Source: Desulfarculus sp.
GTDB lineage: Bacteria; Desulfobacterota; Desulfarculia; Desulfarculales; Desulfarculaceae
DNA length: 64,000 bases
Direction of reading: 5' to 3'
Assembly: GCA_016218705.1 (NCBI GenBank)
Contig: JACRDC010000075.1
Coordinates: 1 to 64,000, forward strand
Shown here: piece by piece, positions 1 through 52,446 of the stretch
How positions within the stretch are numbered: the stretch's first letter is position 1
Layout: each line of letters opens with the position of its first letter
Notes under the pieces: model-generated
What the model saw: only the letters and a program-made list of their open reading frames with translations
The model's database searches: none
Told to the model about the DNA's origin: nothing
Made by a program: the position numbers and the translations under genes

Positions 1-161
1 ATCGGCCGGTCAAAAACGTGGTTTTGCCCGTCCTCCCTGGCGCTTTCGCGCCCGGCGGGCCATTCCCCGGGGTCCCCAAGCAAACGCAGTTTGCTTGGGG
101 TGGATCCATGGCCCGCATACCAAGTTGCGATCAAACTACTCTTTTGATCGCAACTTGGTAT
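1..161. repeat. Modular palindromic hairpin cluster, copy 1 (truncated by window start)
   Basis: Perfect 19-bp stem 117-135/143-161 (ataccaagttgcgatcaaa...tttgatcgcaacttggtat); 9-bp stem gcgggccat 55-63/atggcccgc 108-116 enclosing a perfect 12-bp hairpin 74-85/89-100. The whole block is the reverse complement of the cluster at 51854-52015 apart from local changes. Confidence 0.85.
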
Positions 162-3376: not shown

Positions 3377-3608
3377 GTCCTCTACTCCTTGCCGACATCC
3401 CCTAACACACCGGCCACGGCCAGCAAATGGGCCTGGCCTGACTTGAGGCCATGCTAGCACAGGGGCCGGAAGGCGGCAACCGGCCCAGGGGCGGGGCTGG
3501 GCGGTGGCCTCCGGCAGAAGGCCATTGACAGCCGCCCGTGTGCCAGAGTAAGACTTACCCCGATGAGAGGGCCTTCGCCGCGCCGAGGGCCTGATCTGTC
3601 CAAATATT

Positions 3609-3697
3609 GCTGGGGGAGCTGGCAACGGCTGAGAGTACGCCCGATGGTCGGGCGTTGACCCCTCGAACCTGTTGGGTAATTCCAACGCAGGGAAGCA
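3609..3697 (+). promoter_or_regulatory. TPP riboswitch (THI element)
   Basis: ctgggggagc...CTGAGAgtac...gaccccTCGAACCTGttgGGTAATtCCaaCGcAGGGAagc matches the thi-box core; directly upstream of thi4. Confidence 0.95.
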
Positions 3698-3782
3698 TTC
3701 GTCAGGCCCCCTAGGGGGCTGGGGCCGGTTTCCCATGCGGAGGCCGGCCCCGTTGCTTACAGGGCCGGCGGAAAGGCATGTC

Positions 3783-12591: not shown

Positions 12592-12619
12592 CCCGGACAA
12601 CAACTCGTTGTTGTCCGGG
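12592..12619. repeat. Perfect 12-bp inverted repeat downstream of the TIR gene
   Basis: cccggacaacaa-ctcg-ttgttgtccggg. Confidence 0.8.
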
Positions 12620-13179: not shown

Positions 13180-13277
13180 CCCCCTCTCCCCCATTCCCAT
13201 GGGGGAGAGGGCGGGGTGAGGGGGCTCTTGAGTCACCCCCCTCACCCTGACCCTCTCCCCCCAGTGGGGGGAGAGGG
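13180..13277. repeat. Inverted REP/BIME-like pair (ccctctcccc...ggggagaggg)
   Basis: Two palindromic units, ccccctctcccccattcccatgggggagagggcggggtgaggggg and cccccctcaccctgaccctctccccccagtggggggagaggg, in inverted orientation. Confidence 0.85.
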
Positions 13278-18032: not shown

Positions 18033-18152
18033 GCGGGCCATGGACGGCCCGCCCGAAATCAGGCCAAATGATAATTTGGCCTGATTTAGAAAGCTTGCCA
18101 AAATTTACTTTTGGCAAGCGCCAAGAGGAGAAAGCCATGGATGGCTTTCTCC
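18033..18152. repeat. Modular palindromic hairpin cluster, copy 3
   Basis: Four consecutive hairpins: gcgggcc-atggac-ggcccgc (18033-18052), aaatcaggccaaat-gata-atttggcctgattt (18056-18087), gcttgccaaaa-tttac-ttttggcaagc (18093-18119), ggagaaagcca-tgga-tggctttctcc (18127-18152). Confidence 0.85.
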
Positions 18153-19308: not shown

Positions 19309-19349
19309 TCGCTAACCGTGCCGGTGTGTTCGCATTAGGCGAGCCATCT

Positions 19350-19424
19350 CCGGGGTCCCCAAGCAAACGCAGTTTGCTTGGGGTGCTCTTCCGGGGCCCC
19401 CAAAAAAGCGCGGTTTTTTTGGGG
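19350..19424. repeat. Modular palindromic hairpin cluster, copy 4 (two paralogous hairpins)
   Basis: ccggggtccccaagcaaacgcagtttgcttgggg (identical to 67-100) followed by ccggggcccccaaaaaagcgcggtttttttgggg; same length, compensated stem changes. Confidence 0.85.
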
Positions 19425-19429
19425 CGGGC

Positions 19430-51833: not shown

Positions 51834-51853
51834 ACAACCTGGAGCATCGTCTA

Positions 51854-52015
51854 ATACCAAGTTGCGATCGAACGAGTAGTTTGATCGCAACTTGGTATGC
51901 GGGCCATGGATGGCCCGCCGGGCGCGTTAACGCCCGGGAGGCCGGGCAAAAACACTCTTTTGTCCGGCCGATCAGCAATCAAAGCCAGGGATGGCTTTGA
52001 TTGCATATTGGTATA
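51854..52015. repeat. Modular palindromic hairpin cluster, copy 2 (inverted mosaic relative of 1-161)
   Basis: Hairpins at 51854-51898, 51899-51918 (gcgggcca-tgga-tggcccgc), 51918-51937 (ccgggcg-cgttaa-cgcccgg), 51940-51969 (ggccgggcaaaa-acactc-ttttgtccggcc), 51975-52004 (gcaatcaaagcca-ggga-tggctttgattgc). Confidence 0.88.
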
Positions 52016-52020
52016 AGGCA

Positions 52021-52091
52021 AGCCAACAACTATAAGCTTTGTCTAGCTAATACTATTTCAACAACCATTATATAGCATTAGGTTGTTGGCT
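52021..52091. repeat. AT-rich segment bounded by a 10-bp inverted repeat
   Basis: agccaacaac (52021-52030) / gttgttggct (52082-52091). Confidence 0.6.
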
Positions 52092-52446
52092 CTTGATCCG
52101 GGCATCCTCTGGCCGGCGGGTTTTGATTTTTGGCCGCCCGGGCCCCGTGTCCCGCTCTTAGCCCGGCCATTCTTAGGGCACCGGCAGGGGGCTGGTATGA
52201 TCCACCCGGGAAGGGATACGGGCTCCCTGCGGCCCCTGCCCACGCCAAGGCGGAGAGTCCACCCCGCGCCGGCACCCGCACCGGCCAAGCCAGTATGGCC
52301 GGGCGGCTCTAGCGGGACACAAAAAGAAACCGCTTAGGTTTTCTTGGGCCGCCGAAACGGTAAGGGTTGTACCCAAAGGAAATATACCGAAAAACTATGC
52401 GTCTGATCTGAAATGCGTATAATTAGGCGTGATTCAGCGGGCGGCC

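Follow-up and report, generated by a model that had tools for sequence, protein, structure and literature searches.

A five-hairpin miniature transposable element of a Desulfarculaceae-type genome and a nested hairpin that also occurs outside it

BOX, ERIC, Correia/NEMIS and bcr1 are composite, dispersed small repeats of several hairpins, and the element described here, F1, resembles them in its foldable hairpins. F1 would be set apart from these four by its ends, its target duplication and its sequence. Elements of the IS1031 group within the IS5 family insert at TNA and leave a 3-bp repeat (PMC12016507). Among tagged REPs, nesting in palindromes is known, and some, the CGTC class, are without a known transposase (PMC3733652). 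The small RNA RsmW binds RsmA, and its GGA motifs have been shown in loops (PMC4950607). Here we present F1 together with a second element in which the same order of hairpins recurs (F2) and with a hairpin that is nested in many F1 copies (F3).

The window is the whole stretch of 64,000 nucleotides that was analysed, taken from a GC-rich Desulfarculus sp. genome of 4.2 Mb in 126 contigs (the host genome, G000), which was searched by stretches. A sequence-only reading had seen at 51854-52015 a set of modular hairpins with shared apices, not recognized as a described REP, BIME or MITE family. The hairpins quoted there are all at their positions; instead of a loose cluster, however, 51854-52014 is a single complete copy of F1, a miniature transposable element, with the following parts.

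51854..52014, plus strand: complete F1 copy, a multi-hairpin MITE of 161 bp with the ends ATACCAA...TTGGTAT
51852..51854, plus strand: left copy of the TNA target duplication (TAA)
52014..52016, plus strand: right copy of the TNA target duplication (TAA)
51854..51898, plus strand: H1, terminal palindrome, the stem of which covaries across species
51899..51918, plus strand: H2, GCGGGCC-ATGGAT-GGCCCGC with an ANGGA hexaloop, in many other copies with a nested F3
51919..51938, plus strand: H3, GC-rich hairpin with a GTTA-type loop here, mostly GAAA, GTAA or GCAA in other copies
51940..51969, plus strand: H4, with a CAAAA...TTTTG apex, in some other copies with a nested F3
51975..52004, plus strand: H5, GCAATCAAAGCC-AGGGAT-GGCTTTGATTGC with an ANGGA hexaloop
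1..161, minus strand: second F1 copy, truncated by the contig start, with H1 at 117-161

The 161 nt fold into five consecutive hairpins, perfect or nearly so, with an energy of -65.7 kcal/mol; the mean for shuffled sequences is -25.4 (z -12.75; none of 200 shuffles as good). H5 of the window reads CAGGGAUG. The loops of H3, closed by a C-G pair, are mainly GAAA and GTAA, with GCAA in the relative G002, as counted with a loose search pattern from which only matches with the H3 stem were taken. The hairpin at 117, previously assigned to the type of H4, is H1 of the second copy, whose AAA...TTT closing only resembles the CAAAA...TTTTG of H4. Immediately 3' of the window copy (approximately 52050-52190) there is a dispersed repeat, some 137 bp long, with several further sites in the sister species G003 and one after the F1 copy at locus L014. 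Elsewhere in the window, positions 3602-3710 hold a TPP riboswitch (60.4 bits).

The further copies that the sequence-only reading anticipated are abundant in the host genome, where the first arm of H1, ATACCAAGTTGCGATC, has 222 matches with up to two mismatches, against none for the reversed control. Strict H1 palindromes number 66 in the host genome and four in G003, and 148 other relatives have none. When the copies are oriented by H1, nearly every one keeps the order H1-H2-H3-H4-H5 and end in ATATTGGTAT; a few carry internal deletions, and nearly all have TACCAA/TTGGTA terminal inverted repeats. F1 has no coding capacity and measures 161-243 bp, many copies being about 203 or 243 bp long because H2, H4 or both hold an additional F3. 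The flanks read T N | ATACCAA...TTGGTAT | N A. Of the 43 copies that have both ends, 38 show an identical N on the two sides, and 37 have a fully matching 3-bp TNA duplication.

The flanks of ten F1 copies, joined after removal of F1 and one TNA, were compared with five sister genomes. In G003 contiguous empty sites were found at L021, L023, L032 and L065, three of them with a single TNA and that of L032 with TAC-A replacing TTC-A; F1 therefore transposed after the split of the two species. The insertion at L026 is common to both, the G003 copy having diverged, and at L036, L055, L062 and the window copy the orthologous junctions are too diverged for an empty site to be called. F1 is thus a MITE by its terminal inverted repeats, target duplication, empty sites, shortness, lack of coding capacity and copy number, and it is a new one. 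Because 51854-52015 consists of five fixed parts with a TNA target duplication, in a family with empty sites, neither the independence of its hairpins nor the reading of the stretch as something other than a MITE holds.

The TNA target suggests an IS5/IS1031-type enzyme for F1. No protein of PF01609 or PF13340, the two families searched, was found in the host genome, and the fetched loci contained no autonomous long element with F1 ends, the end pairs there belonging to neighbouring F1 copies. A PF13340 locus in G002 was rejected as a partner on account of its ends, AGAACTTATCCG. F1 shares with IS1031-group MITEs its shortness, lack of coding capacity, terminal inverted repeats and 3-bp TNA duplication, but differs in its five-hairpin interior with compensated stems, in ends that match no partner found and in a transposase that was not found. 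Since no autonomous partner with its ends turned up, F1 is filed as a MITE and not as a member of the IS1031 group.

The order of the F1 hairpins recurs on other stems in a second element of the window.

18033..18152, plus strand: F2, four-hairpin element in the hairpin order of F1 H2-H5 on other stems

F2 folds into four hairpins (z -11.5), namely a GCGGGCC-type H2, a long H3, a CAAAA...TTTTG H4 and an H5 with GCCATGGATGGC. About eleven long copies are present in the host genome, and their boundaries proved variable when examined for a target duplication. Further element types with the same hairpin order and different stems occur in G003 (L232, L235) and in G006 (L225, partly L222), the likeness of all four types being judged by eye. 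Shared apices on different but compensated stems, as proposed from the window alone, are borne out: GCCATGGATGGC was found on stems of three kinds (GCGG.., GCAATCAAA.. and GGAGAAA..), and two-sided changes exceed the controls. The statement that no single conserved REP sequence is involved also stands; the stems vary freely but remain compensated, and the apices recur.

F3 is a hairpin of the form CGGGGTCCCC-stem-GGGGTGG, nested in the apex of H2 and/or H4 in many F1 copies and missing from the same apices in others. It also stands alone and in tandem outside F1, and the window holds both situations.

68..103, plus strand: F3 nested in the H2 apex of the second F1 copy
19347..19426, plus strand: two F3-like tandem hairpins between two plus-strand ORFs

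The idea of modular hairpins is upheld for F3, which the sequence-only reading did not name and which lies at these two places; it fails for the hairpins of F1. The host genome has 79 strict F3 copies (control 0). Further copies occur in G001, G002, G003 and G006, other relatives having only scattered, mostly unstructured matches. Tandem F3 was found in at least 118 stretches of species genomes from at least six phyla, with about 0.01 chance matches by our own estimate; the taxa among the matches listed include Acidobacteriaceae, Pullulanibacillus, a Propionibacteriaceae MAG, several Clostridia, a WOR-3 MAG, Thermaurantiacus and Desulfarculaceae. No tandem F3 was found in viral contigs. Ten F3-rich genomes contain 3-73 strict units each, the controls giving 0 except for 1 and 1 in Dethiosulfatarculus. 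Among 201 distinct inner sequences, Watson-Crick pairing reaches 85-96% at the variable pairs 2-6, where 31-57% would be expected, and 24 distinct units of equal length show 52 two-sided cells against 14.2 in shuffled sets, with a covariation score of 0.51 against 0.16. The base of F3 is constant, and its stem is free to change yet stays paired. No Rfam 15 family matches F3, and nothing lies above the gathering threshold for F1, F2 or F3. No description of F3 or F1 was found in Rfam 15 or in the open-access text searched (figures and subscription papers lay outside its reach), and the open-access papers holding GGGGTCCCC included no bacterial repeat paper among the matches listed.

The flanks of F3 form an outer stem (score of at least 8) at 40% of the sites in the host genome, 58% in G003, 73% in Propionibacteriaceae and 55% in Paracidobacterium, against nulls of 0-4% that were drawn from other genomes. 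An earlier within-genome shuffle test was over-conservative because F3 loci share one outer palindrome. The hosts include H2 and H4 of F1, the end hairpin of F2 and REPs of the TCATTGCGAG / TCATCCCGG type. The placement in palindrome apices is not universal, with 0% in Dethiosulfatarculus and Pullulanibacillus and 8% in one Acidobacteriaceae MAG. Outside Desulfarculales the flanks show an excess of 3-4 nt direct repeats, three positions having about 0.5 matches each where 0.25 would be expected, and within Desulfarculales there is no clear excess; a small F3 target duplication is no more than hinted at.

F3 shares with the GTAG and CGTC tagged REPs (PMC3733652) a hairpin flanked by an unpaired head and tail, scattered intergenic copies, complementarity that is kept across stem variants and nesting in palindromes, and the CGTC class is likewise without a known transposase. 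Since palindrome-nested and transposase-less tagged REPs are known (PMC3733652), F3 works like a REP. It passes as a REP-like tagged palindrome in the general sense, being a small dispersed hairpin with an unpaired conserved tag, and belongs to neither class, its head being CGGGGT and its tail TGG. The CGGGGT tag, the invariant CCCC/GGGG base, a preponderance of head-to-tail tandem arrays in the retrieved set (itself chosen for tandems) and the lack of a detectable RAYT in half of the F3 genomes tested distinguish it from both. Among REP-like repeats, F3 seems to form a new class of tagged palindrome. A little short of an even chance, in our judgement, is the fuller proposal that it represents an undescribed tagged-palindrome superfamily (CGGGGT head, invariant CCCC/GGGG base, free covarying stem, TGG tail), present in six or more phyla, that inserts in hairpin apices and is moved by neither RAYT nor phage-borne machinery.

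Mobilization of the whole system as REP/BIME by RAYT (Y1 transposase) would accord with the REP-like head, stem and tail of F3, with its nesting in palindromes, as in some REPs (PMC3733652), and with the Y1 genes of several relatives. It is nevertheless very unlikely. No Y1 gene is linked to F3, and the RAYT association that had been put forward for checking came out negative: the sole Y1 trace of the host genome is a broken transposase gene (contig C126:14949-15171; L131, L133), the Y1 genes of G003 (L210) and G005 (L201) are flanked by REPs of the CCCGGACAACTTGTTGTCCGGG type, unlike F1 or F3, and five of ten F3-rich genomes, some of them incomplete MAGs, gave no Y1_Tnp match. For F1 in particular, RAYT as the mover is disfavoured by the broken gene, by the different REPs at the Y1 genes of relatives and by its TNA duplication, which sets it apart from Y1 elements. 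The REP type flanking these Y1 genes is matched in the window at 12592-12619, cccggacaacaaCTCGttgttgtccggg, and CCCTCTCCCCC...GGGGGAGAGGG palindromes cluster at positions 13182-13277, where they seem to represent a further type of intergenic repeat. G029, a relative at class level, has 49 Y1_Tnp matches, many with internal stop codons, pointing to an unusual burst or decay of Y1 elements. Still less credible is the view of F1 and F3 as ordinary intrinsic terminators or mRNA 3'-end hairpins that are alike by convergence; F3 arrays of Desulfarculales often begin at or near a stop codon (at L135, L173, L175, L233, L240 and L251 at or within a few bases of it, TAG then CCACCCC), but the stems lack a following U-tract, and units of fixed order with target duplications and empty sites mark a dispersed element. 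The same three features refute an origin of F1 from convergent look-alike terminator hairpins.

The pairing of the stems could in principle arise from palindrome template switching alone, mutations of one arm being copied to the other in replication so that stems covary without selection or function. In 32 H1 sequences from G000, G002 and G003, 93% of the cells are paired, and 23 are compensated on both sides, against 5.2 with shuffled and 3-7 with slid partners. One-sided changes outnumber two-sided ones by 45 to 4 in the host-genome copies; against the same consensus, G002 has 15 two-sided and 37 one-sided changes. From one species to another, F1 stems gain compensatory changes, and the apices remain alike. 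As young copies are mostly changed on one side, uncorrected, and two-sided changes accumulate between species, these counts argue for slow compensation under constraint and against instant arm-to-arm copying. Moreover, when element types are compared, the loops prove at least as well conserved as the stems, whereas arm correction predicts the reverse. At L032, L036 and L052 the H1 loop is inverted relative to other F1 copies, so that hairpin-mediated events do happen, and tandem F3 units are frequently identical within one array; both fit template switching, which as a sole cause we consider unlikely. The F1 data do not separate selection on pairing from slow arm-to-arm template switching. Should F1 and F2 act mainly as RNA, transcribed copies might sequester CsrA as mobile sponges or supply portable sites for it, in the manner of CsrB/RsmW, which is compatible with F1 being a MITE; conserved loops on free stems would then be explained because only pairing matters. 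An ANGGA motif in a C-G-closed hexaloop, as in H2 and H5 of F1 and F2, is of the CsrA/RsmA site type. The H5 loops of the host genome are mostly ATGGAT (36), besides AGGGAT (5), ATGGAC (2) and five others, and 16 of 17 F2 loops match ANGGA. ATGGAT is the commonest long-stem hexaloop among the loci examined; in the H5 and F2 loops the third position never changes, and variation falls on positions 2 and 6. Contig C28 carries a csrA-like gene, and the predominance of GNRA among H3 loops also speaks for an RNA role. The model of RsmW, which binds RsmA via GGA motifs (PMC4950607), aligns across F1 with 30.3 bits (E 0.001), below the gathering cut-off of 52. A match to SprD is likewise below the Rfam threshold. 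F1 is thus comparable to CsrB/RsmW-type small RNAs as a series of hairpins with GGA loops, but it is transposon-borne in many copies and has GGA in only two of its five hairpins (H2, H5); besides, many copies have an H2 loop split by F3, and the similarity of the loops is largely recent shared ancestry. On balance we regard a CsrA role as possible and lean towards doubt.

The joint explanation that we prefer, and hold to be probable, is that F1 is a MITE moved in trans, that its pairing is kept by selection, and that F3 is separately mobile and nested. F1 is a non-autonomous DNA transposon of a Desulfarculaceae-type genome, presumably mobilized by an IS5-superfamily (IS1031-like) transposase absent from the PF01609/PF13340 search of the host genome. 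Structural selection, most simply acting on RNA, may maintain the pairing of its hairpins, and F3 may spread apart from F1 as a REP-like mobile hairpin that favours hairpin apices in several genomes.

With empty sites, a shared insertion and more than 60 copies across several species, the F1 series can be used to tell structural selection and template switching apart. Should CsrA bind the ANGGA loops of F1, target sites of a global regulator would be spread by a transposon. F3 bears on how transposase-less REPs such as the CGTC class spread, and if F3 is the superfamily outlined above, it would represent an unknown route of hairpin mobility. F3 provides a sharply defined motif, covarying over more than 200 distinct stem-loops, with which to study the movement of bacterial palindromes and the reason why some of them occupy the tips of hairpins.
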